Below are positions 50,667 through 64,000 of a DNA stretch of 64,000 nucleotides, piece by piece. Where the stretch lies: positions 558,001-622,000 of the forward strand of contig NZ_CP064942.1 of assembly GCF_015679265.1 (NCBI RefSeq), read 5' to 3'. A program made the translations under genes and the position numbers. This stretch comes from Pontivivens ytuae. Its GTDB lineage: Bacteria > Pseudomonadota > Alphaproteobacteria > Rhodobacterales > Rhodobacteraceae. Numbering within the stretch: position 1 is the first letter of the stretch; each line of letters begins with the position of its first letter. The notes below the pieces were generated by a model that was given only the letters and a program-made list of their open reading frames with translations, was not told the origin of the DNA and searched no databases.

Positions 50667-51025
50667 TCGAGGGCCCCTTTCTTCCACTCATAGACAAAGC
50701 CGACGGTCAGCACGAAGAGGAAAACAATCATCGACCAGAACCCCAGCTCCCCCTGATATGGGAAGGATGCGGCCCAGGGGAACAGGAAGGCAACTTCGAG
50801 ATCGAAGATGATGAACAGGATGGAGACGAGGTAGAAGCGCACGTCGAACTTCATCCGCGCGTCGTCGAAGGCGTTGAACCCGCATTCGTAGGCCGAAACC
50901 TTCTCCGCGTCCGGGTTGCGCACCGCGACCACCGCCGCTGCCAGGATCAGGATGAGACCCAGCGCGATGGCGAGGCCCAGGAAGATGAGGATCGGCAGGT
51001 ATTCGCGCAGGAGAAGCTCGTCCAT
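50657..51025 (-). CDS. nuoA: NADH-quinone oxidoreductase subunit A
   Basis: 122 residues from ATG 51025; three helices. Motifs [23 protein letters not shown] (the conserved Cys-containing loop) and [12 protein letters not shown]. First gene of the nuo array and its membrane-arm connector. A promoter at 51057-51085 precedes it. Confidence 0.98.
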
Positions 51026-51056
51026 CGGATCATCCGTTCGTGCTCGGTTTGGAAGC

Positions 51057-51085
51057 GGTCTAAACCTGCCACCGTGGGGGGTCAA
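51057..51085 (-). promoter_or_regulatory. Candidate promoter of the nuo operon
   Basis: On the minus strand TTGACC (51085-51080), a 17-bp spacer, TAGACC (51062-51057), then about 31 bp to the nuoA ATG. The TTGAC / TAnAnn pair is the usual alphaproteobacterial sigma-70 shape. It lies between the tRNA-Asp genes and nuoA. Confidence 0.6.
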
Positions 51086-51168
51086 CGCCGGACGGCGCGT
51101 TTCGGACCCTGCATGCGACAATATGCAGAACGATCCGGCGGACTTGCGATGAAACGGGTGGGGAAACG

Positions 51169-52857: not shown

Positions 52858-53568
52858 ATGTCCGCGCGCGCATCCCTTCGCATCGCCCTTGTCGCCGCAA
52901 CGCTTGCCGCCGCCCCGCCCGCGTCGGCGCAGATGTTCATGGATACCAGCATCTACCAGCCCGACATGCACATGCTGAACATGGATTTCATGAACCAGAA
53001 CATCCGGAACGGCATGGGCATGTCGGAGATCCCGGCGCAGAGCGACAGCGCGCCGATGGAGCTCGCCTTCACCCCCGATCCGGTCATCCGCCAGCAGGTG
53101 ATCGACGCCTTCGTGACCGACGCGGTGAACGGCGGCGCGCCCGAGGCCGCGGCCCTGTGGCAGATGGATGTCTTCGGCGCGCTGAGTGCCGCCCTGCGCC
53201 CCTATGGCCTCGAGACCACGGATCTCGGCGACGCGATGACCGCCTACATGATCGAGTTGCACGATGCGGCGAACCTGCGCAGCAGCGACCCGAGTGCCGC
53301 GACCGTCAGCGCGCTGCGCGCTCAGATCGAAGGTGCTTTCGCCGCAGACGGCTCCGCCCCGGTCAGCGCGGCGGAACGGCAGCGCCAGTCCGACCGGATC
53401 CTGTTGCAGGCCGCCATGATCTCCGGCGCGAAGGACGTGGCGATGACCCAGGCCCCGCCCGAGCAACGCGACGCCTTCCAACAGGCCATGGTGGCGCTCG
53501 GGCGCGACATGTACGGGCTCGACCTGCGCGACGTGGCGCTCGGCGCGAACGGGTTCGCGCTGCAGTGA
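52858..53568 (+). CDS. Secreted Met-rich DUF6683-like protein
   Basis: 236 residues; AGGAGG stands 8 nt before the ATG. Signal peptide to about residue 24 (LAAAPPASAQ). The mature N-terminus is unusually Met-rich (MFMDTSIYQPDMHMLNMDFM, then NQNIRNGMGM: 11 Met in about 32 residues). The remainder is helical (FTPDPVIRQQVIDAFVTDAV; GLETTDLGDAMTAYMIELHD) and resembles DUF6683. The Met cluster could bind copper, as in periplasmic copper proteins, but no other copper genes adjoin. Last core gene before the island. Confidence 0.7.
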   Translation: MSARASLRIALVAATLAAAPPASAQMFMDTSIYQPDMHMLNMDFMNQNIRNGMGMSEIPAQSDSAPMELAFTPDPVIRQQVIDAFVTDAVNGGAPEAAALWQMDVFGALSAALRPYGLETTDLGDAMTAYMIELHDAANLRSSDPSAATVSALRAQIEGAFAADGSAPVSAAERQRQSDRILLQAAMISGAKDVAMTQAPPEQRDAFQQAMVALGRDMYGLDLRDVALGANGFALQ

Positions 53569-53630
53569 AGAGTGCTGCGGGGTCCTGAGCCGAGCGGTCC
53601 CGGCGCGGGGGCCGGAACGGTTTGCCACCG

Positions 53631-53649
53631 CCCCGGACGAGATCCGGGG
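53631..53649. repeat. Palindrome CCCCGGACGAGATCCGGGG
   Basis: Third copy of the family seen at 4264-4320 and 19259-19277; flanks (TTGCCACCG before, CCT after) match the 19259 copy. It lies between the last core gene and the island junction. Confidence 0.6.
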
Positions 53650-53769
53650 CCTTTGGGACCCAGATCACGCGTGTCGCTTCGGAGTGTTCGGCTTAAAAAG
53701 CAACGTTCCCGGCTCAGGGGCCAGGACGGTGGTCCAAAGGATCACCAACGTAACGCATTCAGAGGATGA

Positions 53770-53788
53770 TGGTGGACCTGGGGGGAGT
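53770..53788. other. Island junction: 3'-end fragment of a tmRNA/tRNA-like gene (att core)
   Basis: TGGTGGACCTGGGGGGAGT. Read on the minus strand it is ACT-CCCCC-CAGGTCC-A-CCA: the end of a T-loop, a 5-nt T-stem strand, a 7-nt acceptor strand, discriminator A and CCA, exactly the 3' end expected of a tmRNA (acceptor end CAGGTCCACCA). To the right no tmRNA body follows but mobC, so this is the short duplicate left by island integration; the intact gene should be at the other end, outside the window. Confidence 0.6.
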
Positions 53789-53871
53789 GGAATCGAACCG
53801 CTTCTTCGAGGTTCTGGAGGAATGGGAACGCCATCTGGCGCCCTATGACCTGACAGATCTGCGGTGCGGTG

Positions 53872-54276
53872 ATGACGACCTCGCCCCGTAATTTCAATCA
53901 GCTGTCGAAGGGCAAGACGCCTGCCCCGTTCTCGCTGCGGCTGACCTTCGAGGAGCGGGCGAAGCTGGAAGCGGCGGCCAATGGCGTGCCGCTGGGGGCC
54001 TATATCAAGGCGGTGCTGTTCGACCAGGAACTGCCGAAAGTCCGCAGGCGGAACACAAGGCCCGTTGAGGATCACGCAGTGCTGGGGCGAGTTCTGGCGC
54101 GTCTCGGCCAGTCGCGGCTGTCCTCCAATCTCAACCAGCTGGCCCGCGCGGTGAACACCGGCACGCTGCCTGTCCATCCGGAGGTCGAAGAGGACATCCG
54201 CCAGGCCTGCGCCGACATCCAGGCCATGCGGGCAGAGCTGCTCCAGGCGCTCGGCAAGGCGGCAGGCCCGTCATGA
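53872..54276 (+). CDS. mobC: MobC-like relaxosome accessory protein
   Basis: 134 residues from ATG 53872 (GTG 53869 is also possible; no good ribosome site). Ribbon-helix-helix-type N-terminus (FSLRLTFEERAKLEAAANGV) and the MobC signature LSSNLNQLARAVNTGTL near residue 90. It helps the relaxase bind oriT in conjugative mobilisation. It overlaps the relaxase as ATGA, and both are on the plus strand just inside the island junction. Confidence 0.88.
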   Translation: MTTSPRNFNQLSKGKTPAPFSLRLTFEERAKLEAAANGVPLGAYIKAVLFDQELPKVRRRNTRPVEDHAVLGRVLARLGQSRLSSNLNQLARAVNTGTLPVHPEVEEDIRQACADIQAMRAELLQALGKAAGPS

Positions 54277-55616
54277 TCCTGAAGGGCAATGAGCGCGGCC
54301 ATGGGCGCGAGCTGGCCAATCACCTGATGCGCGGCCAGGAGAACGAGCATATCGAGCTGCACGACCTGCGCGGCTTCATCGCCGACGACCTGCATGGCGC
54401 GATGGCGGAAAGCGAAGCCATCGCCAAGGGCACGCGCTGTAAGAACCATCTCTTCTCGCTCAGTCTGAACCCTCCACCGAATGAAACGGTCCCTGTGGAG
54501 ACCTTCGAGGCCGCCATCGACCGGATCGAAGAGCAGCTGGGTCTGGAGGGCCAGCCCCGCGCGGTCGTCTTCCACGAGAAGGAGGGCCGCCGCCACGCCC
54601 ATGCGGTCTGGAGCCGGATCGACGGCGAAGAGATGAAGGCGGTGCAGCTCTCGCACTACAAGCGCGAGCTGAACGGGATCGCCCGCGATCTCTACCTCGA
54701 ACAGGGCTGGGAGATGCCGAAGGGCTTCCAGGATCACCGCCAGCGCGATCCGCTGAGCTACAGCCGCGCGGAGTACCAACAAGCCAGGCGCACGAAACAG
54801 GACCCCAAGGAGATCAAGCGTATCCTGCAGGAAAGCTGGGCGGGATCAGACAGCCGCCAGGCCTTTGAGACGGCGCTGCGGGACCGGGGCTACGTTCTCG
54901 CGCGCGGCGACAGGCGCGGCTATGTCGCCGTCGATTGGCGGGGCGAGATCTATTCGCTCTCCCGTGCCACAGGGGCCAAGACCAGGGATCTGAAAGCCAG
55001 GCTGGGCGATGCGAAGGCGCTGCAATCCACCGAGGACGCGAAGGCGTTTATCGCGGGGCGGATGACTCCGAAGCTAAAGGCCTGGGCGCAGGAAGAACAG
55101 GCCAAGGCGGAGAAGCAGAATCTCGCGGCCCAGTTCCAGCGCGAGCAGATGGTGCACTGCCATCGCCAGCACCGCGACCAGCTCCGACAGAAGCAGGAGG
55201 ACCGCTGGCAAGCCGAAGAACAACGCCGAGCGGAGCGCACGCCGACGGGCCTGCGCGGCCTCTGGGGCTGGATCACGGGGAAGAACCGCCTGATCCGGCA
55301 GAAGAACGAGGGGGAGATCGCCCATGCTCAAGCCCGAGACCGGGCTGAGAAGCAGGTGACGATCCGGCGTCAGCTGGAGGAACGCCGCAAGCTCCAGGCG
55401 CAGATCGTGGAGGCCCGCAAGCGCCGGAATGCCCAGATCCAGGCACTGAACCAGGACGTGGCCAAATACATGCAGATGGGCGGCACGCCTCCGGTCGATA
55501 TGCCCGACCGCTCCAGGCCGGAGCGCAACCGCGCGCGCGGAGAGACAGGCCGCCGATCACACGACCAGACGGGCCGGACAGGTCGCACACCCGGCACAGA
55601 CCACGAACCCAGCTAA
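54273..55616 (+). CDS. MOBP-type relaxase/mobilization nuclease
   Basis: 447 residues. Relaxase domain in the first about 150 residues: MILKGNERGHGRELANHLM, a Tyr-free motif I region, the metal triad in GRRHAHAVWSRIDG (H-x-H plus an upstream His), and YKRELNGIARDLYLEQGWEMP. The C-terminal half is a basic helical region rich in Gln, Glu and Arg (coiled coil). The motif I nucleophile Tyr is not obvious near residues 15-30, so it may be a VirD2/MobA-like relaxase with a shifted Tyr (LSHYKREL is one candidate). Mobilises the island in trans; no type IV secretion genes are in view. Confidence 0.88.
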   Translation: MILKGNERGHGRELANHLMRGQENEHIELHDLRGFIADDLHGAMAESEAIAKGTRCKNHLFSLSLNPPPNETVPVETFEAAIDRIEEQLGLEGQPRAVVFHEKEGRRHAHAVWSRIDGEEMKAVQLSHYKRELNGIARDLYLEQGWEMPKGFQDHRQRDPLSYSRAEYQQARRTKQDPKEIKRILQESWAGSDSRQAFETALRDRGYVLARGDRRGYVAVDWRGEIYSLSRATGAKTRDLKARLGDAKALQSTEDAKAFIAGRMTPKLKAWAQEEQAKAEKQNLAAQFQREQMVHCHRQHRDQLRQKQEDRWQAEEQRRAERTPTGLRGLWGWITGKNRLIRQKNEGEIAHAQARDRAEKQVTIRRQLEERRKLQAQIVEARKRRNAQIQALNQDVAKYMQMGGTPPVDMPDRSRPERNRARGETGRRSHDQTGRTGRTPGTDHEPS

Positions 55617-55631
55617 CGACAGGAGGTCACC

Positions 55632-55850
55632 ATGACCAAGATACTTGTTCTCTCGCTCTCCGACAGACAGATGCGCCAACTGAGCGAGATGGCGGACTTC
55701 GAGGGGAAAACCCCGGAAGAAATGATCACAACACTGATCACGTGGGGGTTCCGGAACTACCAAGCGGAGTTCCCGGACCTGATTGCCGAGTATGAAGAGC
55801 TGTACGGCAACCCAACACCGTCGGATGGGGATGATGAGTTGCCGTACTGA
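55632..55850 (+). CDS. Small RHH-like hypothetical protein
   Basis: 72 residues with a strong AGGAGG 6 nt upstream, 16 bp after the relaxase. Begins as a beta strand (KILVLSLSDRQMRQLSEMAD) followed by helices, similar in shape to ribbon-helix-helix proteins, with an acidic tail (EYEELYGNPTPSDGDDELPY). Probably the third gene of the mobilisation operon. No family recognised. Confidence 0.6.
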   Translation: MTKILVLSLSDRQMRQLSEMADFEGKTPEEMITTLITWGFRNYQAEFPDLIAEYEELYGNPTPSDGDDELPY

Positions 55851-56156
55851 TTGTGGTGCCGTGTGAGTGCGATGACTTCGTTTTCAGATCGATCGACGCT
55901 CATGATCCGGAGAGAGGCCTGCTTCGAGCCCCAAGTAGATTTGAATGCGGCCGCGGAAACGGGGCTGTCCGCCACGCTCGCACAGAGAAACATCAGTTCC
56001 AGTGACCGAAAATTGCGCTCAACACTGGATAAGCGAGTGCGGAGAAAGATGCAGATTCGCATTTCTTGGTGTTTTGCTTGAAACATGGGCCGTATACGGG
56101 CGAAATATGAACCATGAAAGAACGCAACTATGATTGTCCTCCGGTAGGTGTGTCGG
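55851..56156. other. Low-GC intergenic region without a clear gene
   Basis: About 305 bp of lower GC than the flanks. An open frame on each strand spans part of it but neither has a ribosome site or a recognisable motif; it probably contains the promoter of the next two-gene unit. Confidence 0.45.
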
Positions 56157-56612
56157 ATGGAAGATGCTGAAAGACTGATCCAGCTCATCCGAACCAACCC
56201 AGGCGCGGGATTAGTCATACTCGTCGTCACCTTGACGTTCGCAGGCCTTCTGAGATCTGCGCAAGTTGCCGCCGAAGAGCTGACCAAAAGATGGCTTGAG
56301 CCGAACGAATCAGCAAAAAACAGCAAAGATTCCGTGAACCCGCCACAAACAAAAGTGCCTTTGGGCGAATCAAAAATCTTCAAGGCTAATAAAAGTTTAC
56401 GGCGCCTTTGGGAGAGGCCAAGCACCGCTGCAAGCGCGCTCGGCATCCTTGCCAGTCTCGTGGTTGCATTTATTGCAGCGAGTATTTCGCTAACTAGCTT
56501 TGAAGGTGAATTTACGGACGGACAAGCATGTCAAGGCAGCCGGCTCTTTGGCATTGAATTTGGGGCTTGCTCCACGCCAGAAAATTCATTTCGAGACATA
56601 GAGGGATTCTGA
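56157..56612 (+). CDS. Membrane protein, first gene of a low-GC pair
   Basis: 151 residues from ATG 56157 (AGGTG about 8 nt upstream). Helix 1 at about 16-34 (GAGLVILVVTLTFAGLL), a charged middle (EELTKRWLEPNESAKNSKD), helix 2 at about 101-120 (ALGILASLVVAFIAASISL), then a periplasmic tail with two Cys (QACQGS and GACSTP). Unrecognised. AT-rich codon use shows foreign origin. Its stop overlaps the next start (TGATG), so the two are coupled. Confidence 0.65.
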   Translation: MEDAERLIQLIRTNPGAGLVILVVTLTFAGLLRSAQVAAEELTKRWLEPNESAKNSKDSVNPPQTKVPLGESKIFKANKSLRRLWERPSTAASALGILASLVVAFIAASISLTSFEGEFTDGQACQGSRLFGIEFGACSTPENSFRDIEGF

Positions 56613-57208
56613 TGAGAGTACTTTTCGCACCATTCTTAGCAGCTATTTTCTGCTCCCAGGCTCTAGCTCAAAACAGCCCAGATGCTTTGTGCAGCGAAGA
56701 AGCGCTTCTTGGCGGTACTAGCACGGAGAACAGGACTTCGCTACTGGCATGCCTGGAATCTCTTGCGGCGGCGCAACCATCTGCTCCTGAGCTGCCTGCT
56801 GGAACGGTTATCGCTGTTGATGGCCGTTGCCCAAGAGACCAAGGCTGGGAGCCATATGTCGAGGGTAATGGCAAATTCATCATTGGCACTGGCGCGGGCA
56901 TTCTAATTCCGACTGGGCCACATGCTCCGAACGGTGATACCGATCCAATTGGACTGACCGCTTTGAGCCTTGGCGACCAAGGCGGTGTGGAAGCCCATAG
57001 GCTTACAATACCCGAAATGCCACGTCACAGTCATGGTGGCACCCTGGAAACCGGCGGTCACAGCTATGAGCACCACCAAAACAATAATCGTCTCCCAGGT
57101 CAAACATTCAACTACAATCGCAGCACGGAAGCCGCTGGCGGTAACGTTCCACACAACAATATGCCGCCCTTCATCGCGCTGAACTATTGTATCTATAATC
57201 CGTCATAA
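56612..57208 (+). CDS. Secreted protein with phage tail-collar-like C-terminus
   Basis: 198 residues from ATG 56612. Signal peptide RVLFAPFLAAIFCSQALAQ. After a Ser/Thr/Cys-rich linker, the C-terminal part shows GRCPRDQGWEPYVEGNGKFI, LTIPEMPRHSHGG, GHSYEHHQNNN and the terminal HNNMPPFIALNYCIYNP, the tail-collar pattern of phage and R-body-like fibres (P-x-H-x-H-G ... MPP-x-I-A-L-x-Y-C-I). A collar domain behind a signal peptide is uncommon. His-Asn-rich loops may bind metal. AT-rich codons as in its partner. Confidence 0.7.
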   Translation: MRVLFAPFLAAIFCSQALAQNSPDALCSEEALLGGTSTENRTSLLACLESLAAAQPSAPELPAGTVIAVDGRCPRDQGWEPYVEGNGKFIIGTGAGILIPTGPHAPNGDTDPIGLTALSLGDQGGVEAHRLTIPEMPRHSHGGTLETGGHSYEHHQNNNRLPGQTFNYNRSTEAAGGNVPHNNMPPFIALNYCIYNPS

Positions 57209-57222
57209 GTGCTTCAAAAGCC

Positions 57223-57915
57223 TCAACTCAGCTCTGCACTTCGTTGCCAGTTCAACAGTGTCGGCTCCGCCACATGCCTCACCACCCCATCCAGCCGCGT
57301 CCGCGCCTGACGGCAATACCGCTCCTCTAGCTCCACGCCGAGATAGCGCCGCCCGACCAGGGCTGCCGCCACCAGCGTCGCGCCCGATCCGGCGAAGGGA
57401 TCACAGACCAGATCGCCTCGACGTGAGAACGAGCGGATTAGTGGGGACAGAACCTCCACCGCCTTTTCCGTGGGATGGGCCTTGTTGCCGCTATAGACCC
57501 AGGGCTGAACATCGGCGAGGGGCTTGCCTGGTAGCTTTGCCTGGCCCTTGACCAGCACGTAGGCCTGTTCGTGGTGATAGGCGAGATAGCGCCGCCGGGA
57601 GGCATAGTCCTTGGTCCAGACCATGTGTCCGGCCACGGTGAACCCGGCCGCTTTCCAGGCCGCCATAAAGCGGTCGATCCGGTTCCAGCCATAGAACGAG
57701 ATGCAGAACCCACCCGGCTTCAAGGCTCGGTAGAGCTGATCGAAGACCGGCAGCACGCTCTCCAACGTATCGTCATTCTTCACCGTCCGGCCCGTCCGGT
57801 CCCGGTAGTTCACGCCGTAGGGGGGATCGGTGACGACGAGGTCAACGGCTCCTTCGGGCATGGCCCCGATAATCTGATTTGAATCTCCGCACTGGAGGGT
57901 GTTCTCGAACGGCAT
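57223..57915 (-). CDS. Orphan site-specific DNA methyltransferase (N4/N6, beta-type)
   Basis: 230 residues from ATG 57915 (AGGAAGAC upstream). Catalytic motif TDPPYGV near residue 32 and the AdoMet-binding DPFAGSGATLV near residue 185, in the motif IV then I order of the beta class. Target-recognition part is short (FYGWNRIDRFMAAWK to PLADVQPW). No restriction enzyme is adjacent, so it is an orphan methylase, as often carried by mobilisable elements, with a likely CcrM-like or protection role. It is convergent with the tail-collar-like gene. Confidence 0.9.
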   Translation of the reverse strand: MPFENTLQCGDSNQIIGAMPEGAVDLVVTDPPYGVNYRDRTGRTVKNDDTLESVLPVFDQLYRALKPGGFCISFYGWNRIDRFMAAWKAAGFTVAGHMVWTKDYASRRRYLAYHHEQAYVLVKGQAKLPGKPLADVQPWVYSGNKAHPTEKAVEVLSPLIRSFSRRGDLVCDPFAGSGATLVAAALVGRRYLGVELEERYCRQARTRLDGVVRHVAEPTLLNWQRSAELS

Positions 57916-57944
57916 CTTGTCTTCCTCTTCCTTGTCTGCTGATG

Positions 57945-57960
57945 GGTTGCGCATGCAACC
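57945..57960. promoter_or_regulatory. Palindrome upstream of the methyltransferase
   Basis: GGTTGC-GCAT-GCAACC, a perfect 6-bp inverted repeat with a 4-nt centre, 30 bp upstream of the methylase ATG. Placement fits an operator or controller-protein site, though the sequence alone cannot prove it. Confidence 0.45.
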
Positions 57961-58315
57961 GATCTGCCGCTCTGGCTAAGAGGGGGGTGCAAGGATCACG
58001 GGCGCAGCTTTTGCTGCGGGACCGGAGCCACGCGCAGCTGCACAAGCCGCAGGGCGCGGAAGCGAGCATGGCGAGGACCCACCCCTTGGTCCGCGCCGGG
58101 GGCAACGCCCCAAGCCTTAAATCCACGCAAGACGACCAGCACAGCCGCAGGCTTTGCTCCTCTGCCCTTCAATCCCTGCTCAGATCTTCACGCCGATCCT
58201 CCACTGCCAAGATCCGTCCCCCGCCGCCCATCGGGCCTTCAGGGGCCAATGAGGATGGGACGGGGCCGAAAGGCCCTGATGGTCGGGGCCTCCTGATCCA
58301 CCCAAGGAGGATGAC
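57961..58315. other. Stem-loop-rich non-coding region
   Basis: About 355 bp with no convincing gene. Hairpins include CGCAGC-TTTT-GCTGCG (58003-58018) and GGGGC-AAC-GCCCC (about 58102-58114). The region lies between the methylase and the small gene at 58316 and could be an oriT, an RNA leader, or a replication/partition remnant. No nic-site motif is identified. Confidence 0.45.
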
Positions 58316-58489
58316 ATGAAGCTCATCACACGCTTTGAAGCGGCACAGCGCAGCACACCTGAGCTGCACCGCCTGCTGCGCGAGACATTCAACGCCCTGG
58401 TGCAGTCCGATCCGGACACGGCGCAGCGCCGCAATGCGCTCGCGTCCATCGAGACGATCCAGGCGGAATTGGCATCGCGGGATCCGTAG
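58316..58489 (+). CDS. Small acidic/basic 57-residue protein
   Basis: ATG 58316 with AAGGAGG 5 nt upstream. Sequence begins KLITRFEAAQRSTPELHRLL and continues RETFNALVQSDPDTAQRRNA, ending ELASRDP; all helical, no Cys. Ribosome site and context make it real. The family is unrecognised to me; similar small proteins accompany relaxase genes in alphaproteobacterial elements. Confidence 0.7.
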   Translation: MKLITRFEAAQRSTPELHRLLRETFNALVQSDPDTAQRRNALASIETIQAELASRDP

Positions 58490-58522
58490 CCGGCTCCCGC
58501 AAGATGGCGCATGCTGTATTGG

Positions 58523-58596
58523 TATGCGCCATTCGCCATAACTTACATTCATGCTCCAATCATCATATTGACATTTTATGCTTCATTCGGCATAAT
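58523..58596 (+). promoter_or_regulatory. hipBA promoter with three phased operators
   Basis: Promoter TTGACA (58568-58573), 17-bp spacer, CATAAT (58591-58596). Operator-like 18-mers follow the pattern TATGC-N8-GCATA: 58577-58594 is perfect and overlaps the -10; 58523-58540 has one mismatch; 58550-58567 is degenerate. Their centres lie exactly 27 bp apart (58531.5, 58558.5, 58585.5). The shape recalls the E. coli HipB operators TATCC-N8-GGATA. Confidence 0.75.
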
Positions 58597-58616
58597 AGAA
58601 CAAAAAGAGGCCAAGC

Positions 58617-58868
58617 ATGGACCATATCGCCCGCACCCCCAAACAGATCGGAGACGCCCTGCGCCGCATCCGGCGGTCCCAGGATCAGACCCAGAGCGAG
58701 ACCGGCCGCAAGGCGGGCCTGCGCCAGGAAACCCTCTCCAAGATCGAGACCGGCAATCCGGCGACCAAGATCCAGACCATCTGCGACATCCTCGCGGCCC
58801 TCGATCTGGAGCTGGTGATCCGGGAGCGCAGCAAGGGCGCGCCCGACGAGATCGAGGACATCTTCTGA
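58617..58868 (+). CDS. hipB: HipB-type antitoxin (XRE family)
   Basis: 83 residues with GAGG 8 nt upstream. Helix-turn-helix: IGDALRRIRRSQDQTQSETG, RKAGLRQETLSKIETGNP, KIQTICDILAALDLELVI. It should bind the phased TATGC operators upstream and neutralise HipA. Stop overlaps the hipA ATG by one base (TGATG), the standard operon design. Confidence 0.88.
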   Translation: MDHIARTPKQIGDALRRIRRSQDQTQSETGRKAGLRQETLSKIETGNPATKIQTICDILAALDLELVIRERSKGAPDEIEDIF

Positions 58869-60175
58869 TGGGGCGTCAGCGCAAATACACGCCCTTGGAG
58901 GTCTTCCTGAACACCCGCCATGTGGGCCGGCTGACGCGGCAGAGCAGCGGCGCCATCGACTTCCAGTATGCGCCGGAGTGGCTCGCCTGGGAGCACACGA
59001 TGCCGATCTCCCTGTCGCTGCCTTTGCGGGAGGACCGCTATCTCGGTGCGCCGGTCATCGCCGTCTTCGACAACCTGCTGCCCGACAGCGACGCGATCCG
59101 CCGGCGGGTCGCCGAGCGCCGGGGCGCGGAGGGCATCGACGCCTTCAGCCTGCTGAGTGCGGTCGGCCGGGATTGCGTCGGGGCTCTGCAATTCCTGCCC
59201 GAGGGAGAGGTGCCGGATCCGGCGGACCAGATCCGCGGCGATGTCCTGGACGAGGATGAGATCGCCGCGATGATCGCCAATCTCGGCAATGTGCCGCTGG
59301 GCTTGGGCGACGACCAGGACTTCCGAATCTCCATTGCCGGGGCGCAGGAAAAGACCGCGCTGCTCTATCACGACGGGCACTGGCTGCGCCCGCATGGCAC
59401 CACGCCGACCACCCATATCCTGAAGCCGCAGATCGGGCGCCTGCCCCTCGGTGTCGATCTCTCCCACTCGGTGGAGAACGAGCATCTCTGCCTGCGGCTG
59501 CTGGAGGCCTTCGGGCTGGAGGTCGCCCAGACCGAGATCCGCGACTTCGGCGAACACCGCGTCCTGGTCGTCGAACGCTTCGACCGGCGGCATGCTGCAG
59601 ACGGACGCCTGCTGCGTCTGCCGCAGGAGGACTGCTGCCAGGCTCTCGGCGTGCCGCCCACGCGCAAGTACCAGAACGATGGCGGGCCGAGTGCCGCCGA
59701 CATCCTGGATCTGCTCAAGGCCAGCGATGTGCCCGAGCAGGACCGCATCGCCTTCCTGAAGGCCCAGATCCTGTTCTGGCTGATGGCCGCCACGGACGGG
59801 CATGCGAAGAACGTCAGCCTGTTCCTGCGGCCCGGCGGGCGGTTCCGCCTCACGCCGCTCTACGATGTGATCTCGGTCCAGCCCAGTATCGATGCAGGTC
59901 AGCTGCAGGGACCAAAGGTGAAGCTCGCGATGTCGGTCGGGACCAACCGGCACTACCGTGTCGATGACATCGTGGCTCGGCACTTCATGCAGACCGCCGA
60001 GCGGGCGGGTCTCTCGCGGGATGTCGTGGTGCGGCTGCTCGAAGAGATCGAAGCGGCGTTTGAGTATGCGTTTGAGCGGGTTGAGGCGCAGCTCGGGCGG
60101 GATGTTCCGGAGGAGCTGGTCAAGTCGGTGAAGGCGCGGATGCGGGGGCTGTTGCAGCGGGGTACTGTGGTTTAG
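58868..60175 (+). CDS. hipA: HipA-type serine/threonine kinase toxin
   Basis: 435 residues, the full HipA length (about 440). N-terminal HipA-couple domain (YTPLEVFLNTRHVGRLTRQS; FQYAPEWLAW), then the kinase-like core: AGAQEKTALL, HILKPQ, VERFDR, the catalytic WLMAATDGHAKNVSLFL (D-G-H-A-K-N) and YDVIS. HipA kinases phosphorylate glutamyl-tRNA synthetase or related targets, causing growth arrest. No truncation is seen. Coupled to the antitoxin by one-base overlap. Confidence 0.93.
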   Translation: MGRQRKYTPLEVFLNTRHVGRLTRQSSGAIDFQYAPEWLAWEHTMPISLSLPLREDRYLGAPVIAVFDNLLPDSDAIRRRVAERRGAEGIDAFSLLSAVGRDCVGALQFLPEGEVPDPADQIRGDVLDEDEIAAMIANLGNVPLGLGDDQDFRISIAGAQEKTALLYHDGHWLRPHGTTPTTHILKPQIGRLPLGVDLSHSVENEHLCLRLLEAFGLEVAQTEIRDFGEHRVLVVERFDRRHAADGRLLRLPQEDCCQALGVPPTRKYQNDGGPSAADILDLLKASDVPEQDRIAFLKAQILFWLMAATDGHAKNVSLFLRPGGRFRLTPLYDVISVQPSIDAGQLQGPKVKLAMSVGTNRHYRVDDIVARHFMQTAERAGLSRDVVVRLLEEIEAAFEYAFERVEAQLGRDVPEELVKSVKARMRGLLQRGTVV

Positions 60176-60347
60176 ATGGGCCGGTTGTTATGGCGGGTCG
60201 GCGTGAAAGCCGTATCTGGCAGCGGCCCGATTCTGCCGTTTGACCATCAAGCGCGCCGCTGCAGTGCGCCGACCAAAGCCGCCATCTGCCGCGCCTGCGA
60301 ACGAAGAGAACCGTCCAAGGTCGAAAGGCGGACAGAGCGACTATGCC

Positions 60348-60737
60348 TTATTCCACGCGAACGAACTTGCGCATGGTTAACCCTTCTACCGTTTTGAAAT
60401 GTGTCGGACGAAGTTCACCCTCATCCGCAGCGATGAAGCGGAAAGTCTGATCGGTTAGCTCATAGATCGCCGGAAGTTCTTTCCCTGCGTCTTCACCGAT
60501 TGAATCCACCCATGTGATCGCTTTCGGTGTTGTTGTCGCATCCAGCTCAAAAGTTCCCTTGAGCAGCAGTCTGTCATCCGGCGCAATGACCCTAAATTCA
60601 TTGCCCTCGAAGACACACACTGCCCCAGGTGCTGTGTGCTCGTCATTTGGCGGCTCGATAACACCATCCGCCTCAAGATAGGTCTGCGACCACACACCTT
60701 GGAGTTGATCAAAGTCAGCTTGGCTAATCGGGTCCAT
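60348..60737 (-). CDS. TIGR03067-like domain protein
   Basis: 129 residues. Pattern FDQLQGVWSQTYLEADGVIE, then FEGNEFRVIAPDDRLLLKGTFEL, TTPKAITWVD and LPAIYELTDQTFRFIAADEGELRPTHF, close to the about 107-residue TIGR03067 domain best known from planctomycetes. No signal peptide. Function unknown. Moderate GC and isolated orientation suggest cargo. 172 bp of non-coding DNA separate it from hipA. Confidence 0.65.
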   Translation of the reverse strand: MDPISQADFDQLQGVWSQTYLEADGVIEPPNDEHTAPGAVCVFEGNEFRVIAPDDRLLLKGTFELDATTTPKAITWVDSIGEDAGKELPAIYELTDQTFRFIAADEGELRPTHFKTVEGLTMRKFVRVE

Positions 60738-60964
60738 GGAAGCTCTATCGGGTTATTCACTACTCAGGAGAGGGATAGCCTATTGCAGGTTAAATGTCGT
60801 TGATGGGATCTGTGCGGACCTCGGACGCACCGCGGCATCTTCCGCCGCTTGGCTCGAACGCACGTCGAGGACGGCCCACACCGGACCTTCATCCCGACAT
60901 AAAGCGCCGCGCTGCAGCTTCACCAAACCGGTCATTCGTTCGAGCTACCTTTCCCACTACCGTC
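60738..60964. other. Intergenic region of the island
   Basis: About 225 bp with no ribosome site or motif; contains a GC-richer stretch (60830-60930) that reads like a worn intergenic repeat. I see nothing further. Confidence 0.35.
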
Positions 60965-61147
60965 TTGACGAGCAGCGCCAAATTCGCCGCAGAAAATCTG
61001 GCGATTGATGGCGCAAGGTGTGTCTTGCGGGAAGTTGTATACGTTGGATGGACGCCGGAGGCCGGATGCAGCTATCTTTTTCACCTGCAGGCTCCATATG
61101 CCGTAGAAACACTTTGGTGGAACCTGCAACCGCATGGTGAGGCTTGA
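60965..61147 (+). CDS. Possible short gene upstream of the protease
   Basis: TTG 60965 to TGA 61145-61147 gives 60 residues; the C-terminal part looks protein-like (REVVYVGWTPEAGCSYLFHL, then QAPYAVETLWWNLQPHGEA). The TGA is embedded in the next gene's TTG start (TTGA), an arrangement that suggests coupling. The start is a guess, and the fragment may be the 3' end of a decayed gene. Confidence 0.3.
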   Translation: MTSSAKFAAENLAIDGARCVLREVVYVGWTPEAGCSYLFHLQAPYAVETLWWNLQPHGEA

Positions 61148-62178
61148 CGCAGTATAAATTATTGGAGGCAATCATTCCATTTCCTGTAGAAGTACACCCG
61201 GACGAAGTAGATGAAAGGGGACTCTTTCTCGTCCAAAGTCCAGAGATCAGATCGAAGGTGCTCCCGCTTTTCCGGATCAACCCACAATCGCCAAACGAAC
61301 GACCTGCGGGTCATGGCACGACCTTTCGGATTGATCCGTGGTGTATGTGCGCGACCGCCTTTCACGTGATCGAGGAACTTGTCGAGTATTGCGAAACGCA
61401 GCAAGGCGTTCGTATTCGCCCGGATGTTGCACTTGCAGCGCTTGATTTTCGAGGGATCGTTTATGGAACGGTGGCCATACCACGTGATTGGTGGCGCCCT
61501 CTTGAAGGTATGAGCGCATCTCACGTTGGGATAGAGAACAGACCGATGCAACCGACAGCCATCCGAAACCTCAGCGAATTAGCAGCTCTTTTCATTAGTC
61601 CATCGCCGCAGCACAATGGCGCTTCAGAGTACTTTGATTTGGATCTGCGCTGGACACCAAAAATCGGCGATCAGGTTATGGCACTCGGGTACGCCGATCT
61701 CGATGTGGACACGCAAGGGAGAGGCGAACAGCGCCCAATGCAGCAGTATATCTATGGTTCGGTGTCTGAAGTTGTAGAATTGGAGTCAGCTGATGTTACG
61801 CGTGGACGACCGTGGCCGATGATGCGAGTGCAAGCGAATTGGCCTGGTGGCATGAGCGGAGGCCCCGTATTCAACACAGAAGGCCGGGTTGTGGGACTCG
61901 TGAGCACTGGGTTTCCCGGTCAAGACATCGCCACAGCAACGTTTTTTTCTTCCTGGGACATCCCACAGCAGACTTTCCAGTCATTGGATCCAGCGAATCC
62001 TGGCTGGTTCCATTGCATCGGTGTCTATGACGCTGAAGAACGCATTAGATGGGTCGGTCCGAACAGGGCGGAAGCGTCTAGATTCGCCGCTGATCAAAAC
62101 CTTTCTGATGTTCGCGCGATTTCCTTCAAACCTGCTTCACAGGAATACATGGTGCTGCAAAGAATACCTCTCGAGTAG
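61144..62178 (+). CDS. Trypsin-like serine protease
   Basis: 344 residues from TTG 61144. The catalytic His is in CMCATAFHVIEEL near residue 75, with an Asp candidate in the RPDVALAALDFRG region, and the Ser in PGGMSGGPVFNTEG (GxSGGPV) with GRVVGLVSTG after it. This is a chymotrypsin/trypsin_2-type fold without signal peptide, therefore cytoplasmic, as in proteases of phage-defence and regulated-cleavage modules. An N-terminal segment of about 60 residues is unlike known proteases. Lower-GC codon use marks it as cargo. The start codon is uncertain. Confidence 0.75.
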   Translation: MTQYKLLEAIIPFPVEVHPDEVDERGLFLVQSPEIRSKVLPLFRINPQSPNERPAGHGTTFRIDPWCMCATAFHVIEELVEYCETQQGVRIRPDVALAALDFRGIVYGTVAIPRDWWRPLEGMSASHVGIENRPMQPTAIRNLSELAALFISPSPQHNGASEYFDLDLRWTPKIGDQVMALGYADLDVDTQGRGEQRPMQQYIYGSVSEVVELESADVTRGRPWPMMRVQANWPGGMSGGPVFNTEGRVVGLVSTGFPGQDIATATFFSSWDIPQQTFQSLDPANPGWFHCIGVYDAEERIRWVGPNRAEASRFAADQNLSDVRAISFKPASQEYMVLQRIPLE

Positions 62179-62353
62179 CGAGCAAGCAGTCGGCCCAAAC
62201 CGGTCGCTCGATCTGTTACTGCAATGCTGCGGCCGCAGCCCGCATAGCCGTCATTCGCTGCACGCCAAATCAGGGTTCAGGCCAATTTGCGGTCTGCGGA
62301 TATTGCTGCCGTCCGTCACAGCAATGCCATTGACCGTTTCAGCGGATTCCGCG

Positions 62354-62382
62354 TTGCTAGTATCAAAAGCCACCAATACTAT
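62354..62382 (+). promoter_or_regulatory. Candidate promoter of the C-anchored membrane gene
   Basis: TTGCTA (62354-62359), 17-bp spacer, TACTAT (62377-62382), 40 bp before ATG 62423. Confidence 0.5.
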
Positions 62383-62422
62383 ATTGTGTGGATGGCGGCA
62401 CGATGAAGGCAAGATATATACG

Positions 62423-63640
62423 ATGAGCGAAGATGATGCCGACGATGAGAGGCCCAAGGGTTTCGACATTTCAAAGTTAAACGTAGAAATGAGCGATGAA
62501 GAGCGCTCGGCAGCGGATGTGCGACTAAAGGAACAGTTCAAAGAATTAGCGGAAGGTACGACTGTCATGGCAGATGCTATGCGAGGTATCGGCGGACTGA
62601 GTTCGGTCGAGGAAGCCAAGCGTTTCGCCAACAACTTGCAGGACGCAATCAATGCTAGCGGGCTTGGAAGCATCCAAGACCAATTCGACACGATCACAGA
62701 TCGTGGCGTCCTCTCTGGGATGTTTGCGGCTCGAGAACGGATGCGCGATCTTCTACCCGACATTCAAGCACATACATCTGCGCTCGCGGGCTTGCCTGAT
62801 TACGCCGCACATACCTCTGCGATCCAGAGTGCCTTGGAGGCTGTTACCGCTCTACCCGAGCCGTGGGGCGACGTCTACGGTCTCACCGCTACGTCCCGAC
62901 TGGCGGAAGAAATGCGCAGACAGCATGCTCTTTATCTGGAACCTATCGGTACCTTCGCTGACATTCGAAGTGGAGCCATAGCTGATACCCACCAATCGAT
63001 TCAGGCGATGGTATTGCCACGTTTGGATATAAAGGAATCGTTAGGCATCGAACGCATGGCAGATGCATTCGGCGCAGCAAACGTGTATCAGTCACTTGGT
63101 TTGGTATCGGATTACGACGCCCAAATGCGCGCAATCACTTCATCGCTCAGCGGACACATGGAGGCGCTGACTGCTGCTCAGGCCGTGCGGGACGCCATGT
63201 TCCCATCGGGCTTGACCGACGCCATCGAAAGCTTGTTGGCCCGTAGCATTGCGGCGCAAGAGGCTATGCTAGCGGAGTATCGAGAAAGCGCATCTGACGC
63301 CAAGACAGAAGCCCGCTTCAATCGACGGATGGTGACACTTACCACCATTATTAACATCTTGATGTTCTTCATGACCGTGGCCCTAAACATCGAGGATAGA
63401 CTAGTAGATGATGATGCAGCGGTGCGCGAAAACGCTGAAGCAGTCCGGCAGATGCGGCAGTCCTTCGATGAAATGGCAGCTCAGGTGCAGCGCACGAATG
63501 AGATGCAGGAGGCCGCGACAGAACAGGACAGAGCCGCTGACGCGGCCGTTGCAGATCTTCTAAGAGAAATAGCGAACAGATTGTCTGACGAAGCGGAGTC
63601 AGGGAAGCACGACGTCCCAAAGCCTCCCTTGGTAGACTAG
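62423..63640 (+). CDS. Hypothetical protein with C-terminal membrane anchor and coiled coils
   Basis: 405 residues from ATG 62423. Acidic start (SEDDADDERPKGFDISKLN), helical body with repeat-like LRALPD/AHTSAL segments (about residues 110-140), then a long helix with AEMLAEYRESASDAKTEARF-like charge, one membrane helix near residues 312-331 (LTTIINILMFFMTVALNI), and an acidic coiled-coil tail (ENAEAVRQMRQSFDEMAAQV). Unrecognised; the layout (cytoplasmic sensor-like body, anchor, tail) resembles effectors of defence-type operons. Separate promoter from the protease. Confidence 0.7.
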   Translation: MSEDDADDERPKGFDISKLNVEMSDEERSAADVRLKEQFKELAEGTTVMADAMRGIGGLSSVEEAKRFANNLQDAINASGLGSIQDQFDTITDRGVLSGMFAARERMRDLLPDIQAHTSALAGLPDYAAHTSAIQSALEAVTALPEPWGDVYGLTATSRLAEEMRRQHALYLEPIGTFADIRSGAIADTHQSIQAMVLPRLDIKESLGIERMADAFGAANVYQSLGLVSDYDAQMRAITSSLSGHMEALTAAQAVRDAMFPSGLTDAIESLLARSIAAQEAMLAEYRESASDAKTEARFNRRMVTLTTIINILMFFMTVALNIEDRLVDDDAAVRENAEAVRQMRQSFDEMAAQVQRTNEMQEAATEQDRAADAAVADLLREIANRLSDEAESGKHDVPKPPLVD

Positions 63641-63726
63641 GGACTCAAGGACTGTCGGTCGAGACCACTTTCTGATGTAGGCCGCGTCGTCATCATATAT
63701 ACTTTTGCAAAGCTGGTTTGAGACGC

Positions 63727-63930
63727 GTGAACGACCGAAGTGACACGAAACCCGATCATGAAGCCGCCAAGCTCCCTGAGGCTCAAAACCTACCCGCGGT
63801 GATTGAGCAGGACGGTCTTCCTGTGCCAGCTCCACAGGAAACAGCAGGCAAACCCAAGAAAATTGAGCCGCCTGAAAAGGGTACATTTGCCAGCGAAGCA
63901 CTGTCTAGCCCCCTGTGTCTGGGCCACTGA
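63727..63930 (+). pseudogene. Hypothetical gene interrupted by the IS at the window end
   Basis: From GTG 63727 (TTG 63718 possible) the frame reads NDRSDTKPDHEAAKLPEAQN and on to PEKGTFASEAL, Pro- and Lys-rich, and then runs into the IS end near 63900 and stops at 63928-63930. The last residues (SSPLCLGH) come from IS sequence. Only the N-terminal part of the original gene is present here. Confidence 0.5.
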
Positions 63931-64000
63931 TCAGGGGTTTCTCTAATATTGTTTCAGGAACGGGTGGGCGCATGTTGAGTGCCTGATGCGGTCGGGTGTG
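63905..64000 (-). mobile_element. IS element, C-terminal end of a DDE transposase
   Basis: Minus-strand frame from base 64000 to TAG 63905-63907 encodes HTRPHQALNMRPP and a short tail (VPETILEKPLISGPDTGG). Y-N-x-x-R-P-H-x-A-L is the C-terminal signature of integrase-core (rve) transposases of IS3/IS481-type elements. The IS end should lie near 63898-63905. The rest of the element is outside the window. Confidence 0.8.

Follow-up and report, generated by a model that had tools for sequence, protein, structure and literature searches.

A predicted mobilisable island at a tRNA-Val gene of Pontivivens ytuae with its attachment site inside the integrase gene

Results

Ends and core genes of the island

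We analysed a stretch of 64,000 nucleotides from Pontivivens ytuae (assembly GCF_015679265.1, contig NZ_CP064942.1, positions 558,001 to 622,000 of the forward strand; this whole stretch is called the window below), the right-hand part of which, 53770..64000 (+), is occupied by a genomic island that measures 27,693 bp from core to core, continues for a further 17,462 bp beyond the window and ends at a tRNA-Val(TAC) gene. The source genome is a single contig of 4.20 Mb (G000:C1), and the stretch directly right of the window (G000:C1:622001-642000) is cited here as L004. At the left end of the island, the 19-bp sequence TGGTGGACCTGGGGGGAGT (53770-53788; at G000:C1:611770) occurs once in the window, with 0 copies expected in shuffled sequence, and its last 18 bases occur once in the 4.20-Mb genome with up to two mismatches allowed. 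This 19-mer resembles the 3' end of a tRNA or transfer-messenger RNA (tmRNA) gene, with TGG, a G-rich stretch and TCGAACC, and searches for both kinds of gene called neither at 53770. Common to both island ends is the attachment (att) core TGGTGG, located on the left at 53770..53775 (+) and on the right at L004:17463-17468 (G000:C1:639463-639468), where it forms the CCA end of tRNA-Val; the left junction reads ..GATGA-TGGTGG-ACCTG and the right junction ..CCGGTT-TGGTGG-GCGGTGACGG.

Next to the left core lies a putative P' half of attP, a mimic of a tRNA 3' end estimated to span 53776..53799 (+), in which TCGAAC begins 23 bp from the first T of the core. An open frame at 53772..53891 (+), encoding a 39-aa tail, VDLGGVESNRFFEVLEEWERHLAPYDLTDLRCGDDDLAP, and a stop codon, appears to be the stranded 3' end of the integrase gene. 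The end of this tail overlaps by about 20 nt the start of a mobC-like gene (53869..54276, +; Pfam MobC E 9e-4, below the Pfam cut-off), directly followed by a gene for a MobA/VirD2-type relaxase (54273..55616, +; Pfam Relaxase E 1.5e-14). Near the other end of the island, a VirD4-type coupling protein was recognised by domain match (L004:12798-14633), and a gene for a large serine integrase (LSR) of 533 aa (L004:15905-17506) extends with its 3' end over the intact target gene, tRNA-Val(TAC) (L004:17463-17538, -). The LSR has Resolvase (PF00239), Recombinase (PF07508) and zinc-ribbon (PF13408) domains; S24 in its YCRVS motif, which we take to be the catalytic serine, is invariant in 14 aligned LSR proteins. 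The last LSR codons run antisense into the tRNA gene, which ARAGORN still calls whole, as would be expected of a crossover at the CCA end.

An island with its left end at 53770, carrying mobilisation genes and low-GC cargo, had been proposed in a preliminary description of this DNA, and these features hold: GC content is 52-60% in six of the eight kb bins at 56001-64000 and 41-60% in 19 of the 21 bins at 56-77 kb, against 61-72% in the 11 bins at 77-88 kb, apart from one bin at 58%. Moreover, the flanks of the island are joined in two of three same-genus genomes (G003 and G001). In the source genome, the left flank of the island (left of 53770) carries a tRNA-Asp pair, a GAF/HWE-kinase gene and a Nuo gene, and the right flank, beyond tRNA-Val, carries HU-like and Lon genes. 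A region of 3.1 kb in G003 contains, in this order, a lon-like gene, an HU-like gene, tRNA-Val, a gene of 208 aa, two tRNA-Asp genes and a stretch matching window positions 50834-51105. In G001, a homologue of the 208-aa gene of G003 comes after tRNA-Val, with a homologue of the GAF/HWE kinase after it. The third genome, G002, has kept lon and tRNA-Val, and no link to the left flank was seen there within 1.5 kb. A right end other than tRNA-Val was considered and is ruled out by the empty sites, which put it at that gene. A terminator-like hairpin outside the left core (53707..53726, -; one found, against a mean of 0.4 in shuffles) probably once served as the terminator of tRNA-Val, a gene from which it is now separated by 27.7 kb.

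With its own LSR, TGGTGG at both ends and an empty site in two of the three same-genus genomes, the island has the make-up of an integrative mobilisable element (IME). Relaxase, MobC-like and VirD4-type genes are carried on it; of the genes for a mating pore, VirB4 was searched for, and its sole match in the genome is outside the island, at 2.05 Mb. Helper mating pores would therefore probably be required for transfer.

The target is tRNA-Val and not ssrA

The preliminary description had taken the 19-mer for the 3' end of tmRNA and for the att duplicate of an island inserted in ssrA, with the intact gene and an integrase to be found right of position 64000. An intact target and an integrase are both present there, the target being tRNA-Val(TAC), and the likeness of the 19-mer to a tRNA or tmRNA 3' end stands as that of an att half-site, even though it is no fragment of the genome's tmRNA. 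The only alpha-tmRNA match in the genome is intact (G000:C1:909852-910200, E 8.4e-82; ARAGORN agrees), lies 298 kb right of the 19-mer and has a CCA end reading ...GGCGGCTCCACCA, unlike the 19-mer. No duplicate of a tmRNA 3' end was found at the ends of the island: the 19-mer is unrepeated in the genome, and the two ends share a core of just 6 bp. An intact ssrA with a 3' sequence other than that of the 19-mer had been named beforehand as the observation that would overturn the ssrA proposal, and it is what the genome contains. Apart from the appearance of the 19-mer, ssrA is favoured by four distant LSR relatives that sit at tmRNA genes (see below); with both the LSR and the empty site putting the island at tRNA-Val, however, it is almost certainly not the target. 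Judging from sequence comparison, the 19-mer is island DNA, comprising an attP half-site and integrase codons, and not a duplicate of the target, because related sequences precede mobC-like genes elsewhere with different left flanks.

Integration is predicted to exchange the C-terminus of the integrase

When the two ends of the island were joined at the core in silico, a single open frame ran from the integrase into the 39-residue tail. In this reconstruction, attP lies within the 3' end of the integrase gene, as in the Mx8 type of system, and integration replaces the tail by VGGDGLEPPTHSV, 13 residues read antisense from the tRNA, with the recognised LSR domains kept. We conclude that the island is very probably an IME of 27,693 bp that its own LSR inserted at the CCA end of tRNA-Val(TAC), with attP inside the LSR gene.

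We then examined the tail in 394 genomes of the host's family, counting matches at E<=0.01 and excluding weaker ones up to E 1. This gave 47 tails in 39 genomes, 28 of which also have an LSR match, compared with 80 of the 394 genomes overall (hypergeometric 1.6e-13, which ignores relatedness). An LSR is present on the same contig for 23 of the 47 tails, the other 24 being on contigs without one, and in all 23 cases it lies downstream on the same strand, at a distance of 0.2-42 kb (15-31 kb in 18 of them); two of these tails, both from G298, share one LSR, and three of the LSR matches (G201, G272 and G146) are fragments within 2 kb. Joining LSR and tail gave an open frame in 12 of 12 pairs, including all eight same-contig pairs; the others, from different contigs, are those of G109, G143, G201 and G261, the last with unequal cores (TGGTGG and TGGTGC) and probably no true pair. 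In G152, a decayed LSR end (residues 443-511, 69 aa, 38% identity, E 1e-9) continues in frame through the core into a tail, as after a tandem insertion, to judge from its sequence.

Thirty left ends were fetched, and L078, L079 and L096 were set aside; in all 27 others the next gene starts before the tail ends, with a script-called overlap of 17-44 nt. The motif WExHL is present in 22 of these 27 tails. In a sample of 19 tails of 39-40 residues, the ratio of nonsynonymous to synonymous polymorphism (pN/pS) for codons 10-30 was 0.46 in frame, compared with 0.93 and 1.20 in the shifted frames. In G019, a 5.4-kb remnant island at tRNA-Ala(GGC) (G019:C1:222332-227709, L011) has kept the tail, mobC and part of the relaxase gene, and no LSR was found in it.

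Among protein homologues of the LSR (120 listed of 3006 found), 111 have an FPFK-like end with MV, LV or VV behind it. In 88 of the 111 the residues that come next match a pattern for tRNA-antisense peptides, for example EPRGVEPLTSCMPCKRSPN, and the rest stop early or differ; none of the remaining ends among the 120 is tail-like by eye.

The integrase family ends on many tRNA genes

Three fetches yielded 131 LSR loci, which, with 12 duplicates, correspond to 119 distinct ones. In 120 of the 131 loci (108 of the 119), the LSR gene ends on a detected tRNA or tmRNA gene of the other strand, the 108 distinct loci covering 22 anticodons of eight amino acids (Thr, Arg, Ala, Leu, Val, Tyr, Ser and Met) and, four times, tmRNA. 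The tmRNA cases (L188, L198, L199 and L203) belong to distant relatives in metagenome-assembled genomes titled Paceibacterota, Roizmanbacteria, Nomurabacteria and Yonathbacteria, which are presumably all Patescibacteria. Where no RNA gene was detected, inspection by eye showed four LSRs ending inside tRNA-like sequence (L111, L120, L128 and L170), three partial tRNA-like ends (L049, L173 and L185), two tmRNA-like ends (L191 and L200), a P'-arm-like sequence after the LSR in L184, and none of these in L040. Two further relatives occur in the source genome itself, giving it three tRNA targets: a further island of this family, shortly before the start of the window (G000:C1:526914-555030; L099 and L100), with a tail at 526914, an LSR at 553445-554989 ending on tRNA-Thr(TGT) and the core TGGTGC, and a third LSR (G000:C1:3254072-3255299, L101) that ends on tRNA-Thr(GGT). 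In Roseovarius marisflavi DSM 29327, a relative, the LSR lies at tRNA-Ala. A plasmid search matched the LSR in one of 72,556 records, covering 41% of the query, a phage search matched it in four of 50,697 records at below 26% identity, and viral contigs contained one relative (L209), with a tRNA-like end behind it that was not called by ARAGORN.

The position of the T-loop sequence relative to the core differs between tRNA genes and island left ends. In tRNA genes, its complement begins 18 bp from the T of TGG (28 of 28 genes in one set, 117 of 120 in the LSR loci), a spacing that is tRNA geometry, whereas at the island left ends T[TC]GAAC begins at 23 bp in 24 of 30 and at 18 bp in none; the six without the strict motif at 23 bp are L073, L078, L079, L083, L094 and L096. 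The set of 27 left ends was itself chosen by a looser motif at this position, and its spacing is a product of that selection. After the LSR, tRNA spacing is found in 122 of the 131 loci, attP spacing in one (L184) and neither, by pattern, in eight. The 27 left ends show almost no conservation on their host side: over the 45 bp that precede the core, the only signal is a weak one in the first six or seven bases.

Discussion

In the circular form, the genes would be ordered coupling protein, LSR, attP, 39-codon LSR tail, mobC and relaxase, with the tail and mobC overlapping. Integration at TGGTGG would cut through this run, part the LSR from mobC and the relaxase and leave the native LSR tail stranded at the far end of the island, ahead of mobC; excision would restore the tailed integrase and join coupling protein, integrase, mobC and relaxase in one run. 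Tail swap and operon split could together act as a state switch, with a tailed enzyme and a joined mob operon for the circle and a tail-less enzyme for the integrated state. Fusing a recombination directionality factor (RDF) to an integrase is reported to alter direction (PMC5737554), and by analogy with such fusions the tail may set the direction of recombination. Both excision and switching of the island are inferred.

The zinc-ribbon domain of the LSR may in turn read a motif that tRNA genes share in their T-arm, and this would account for the use of many of them by one integrase family. For the large serine integrase LI, Rutherford et al. 2013 (PMC3783163) described a zinc-ribbon motif that stands 5 bp closer to the centre in attB than it does in attP, and the 23- and 18-bp spacings seen here, for a motif read from sequence and in one arm, match this shift in size and direction. 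We tentatively put forward both parts together, namely that the family targets tRNA genes in general through the zinc ribbon and carries a built-in directionality switch in which tail and mob operon would be detached at each integration and restored at each excision, as a proposal that is rather more doubtful than not.

Several observations weigh against the overall reading of the island. An LSR match is lacking in 11 of the 39 tail-bearing genomes, and in 12 of 120 loci the LSR frame at the core departs from the phase shared by the other 108 (eight and three in the other phases, one short). One contig, titled uncultured Sphingorhabdus (L207, 1-4976), has LSR, att, a tail-like open reading frame, mobC and relaxase in the order predicted for the circle, but the frames of LSR and tail differ, which for that element speaks against a strictly in-frame fusion. 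Searches of the protein database turned up no tail-bearing LSR, either in one with 19 candidates, none at E<=10, or in a second with nine, eight of which gave matches covering 50-77% of a 62-residue region and all belonging to the relatives whose C-termini are listed; both numbers of candidates are small. The T-loop motif also serves as codons of the tail (S-N or L-N), and a mirrored motif, sought in the P arm, gave no clear candidate; the zinc-ribbon reading is therefore an inference.

The last two points are also those that favour taking the 18/23-bp difference as a coincidence of tail coding, with the motif simply falling on conserved tail codons. Against this stand the agreement with the attB/attP shift of the LI integrase and the spread of targets over 22 anticodons and tmRNA, all sharing T-arm geometry, and we consider such a coincidence unlikely. 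The tail might also be no part of the integrase but a small leader frame of mobC whose start coincides by chance with the att core: an ATG, TTG or GTG start is possible there, the frame overlaps mobC, and both the protein searches and the broken frame of L207 would fit. In-frame joins in 12 of 12 pairs and the in-frame LSR remnant of G152 speak against it, and the near-unconserved 45 bp upstream of the core offer no conserved ribosome site for an independent start, making an origin as a leader frame improbable. A harder case to set aside is that the swap of C-termini is real but neutral, the body of the enzyme sufficing and the tail being tolerated read-through that attP and the mobC overlap keep in place. 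The C-termini of the 120 listed relatives vary widely, some ending one residue after MV, and part of the tail is constrained by attP and mobC in any case; on the other hand, the codons with a pN/pS of 0.46 lie nearly all past the P' motif and mostly ahead of the mobC overlap, and WExHL recurs in most tails. A neutral swap is a real possibility, not far short of an even chance, beside the directional switch proposed above.

The nearest published case that we have seen is DsiB of the Dehalococcoides ssrA islands (PMC3146451), a serine recombinase of 540 residues whose gene has a 3' end overlapping att at an RNA gene; its authors noted divergent C-termini and suggested that full function might exist on the circle only. 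DsiB differs in its target, ssrA, and in being likened to CcrB, and the cited section identifies no native tail; compared by description only, the present family uses many tRNA genes and has a tail, found in 39 genomes, that overlaps mobC. The Dehalococcoides islands also carry a second, small serine recombinase, and a small serine recombinase of 199 aa inside the present island (L004:11138-11737) recalls this DsiA beside DsiB. In Myxococcus phage Mx8 (PMC6070905), attP likewise lies inside the integrase gene and integration gives a new 3' end, reported to modify the integrase and not to inactivate it; again by description only, Mx8 differs in being a phage and not a family of mobilisable islands. 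The A118/LI integrase (PMC3783163; PDB 4kis) has the LSR domains and a zinc-ribbon motif lying 5 bp closer to the centre of attB than to that of attP, and is a phage integrase with a pseudo-palindromic attP, unlike the motif seen clearly in one arm here. IMEs with serine integrases such as Tn4451 (PMC5704250) share the type of enzyme, the mobilisable element and very short att repeats, but are described as integrating within genes or with low specificity and not at tRNA 3' ends. Multi-targeting LSRs, in which one group uses many targets, were described by Durrant et al. 2022 (PMC10083194); the example given there has a TT core and T/A-rich ends, and the word tRNA occurs 0 times in the main text. 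No serine integrase that has a split tail and uses tRNA genes in general is described in the titles and abstract openings of the best-ranked papers in the open literature, a scope outside which most subscription papers fall; such islands may be present in later island databases (PMC12424338).

A single serine-integrase family thus occurs at 22 anticodons of eight amino acids and at tmRNA. If its zinc ribbon does read the T-arm, cargo could be inserted at tRNA genes, which are found in every genome, with the tRNA left whole. Directional control of serine integrases matters for their use as tools, and a naturally detachable tail would offer a testable counterpart to the RDF-integrase fusion (PMC5737554).

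Cargo and neighbouring genes

The cargo within the window includes an N6/N4 DNA methyltransferase (57223..57954, -), a hipBA-like pair of a helix-turn-helix gene and a HipA-like gene (58617..60175, +) and a trypsin-like protease (61144..62178, +) with a weak likeness to part of PADLOC RT-Protease_XI. A sigma-70-like promoter was sought near mobC (53500-54300) and none was found, which says little in this group. Further right, the protein encoded at L004:1029-2810 has the PIN domain of the TPR-GreAB-C-PIN system (PF20698) and gave no PADLOC match. Adjoining the island on its left, the gene at 52858-53568 has a weak DUF6683 match and, among 61 genomes (its own and 60 relatives), is found in its own only.

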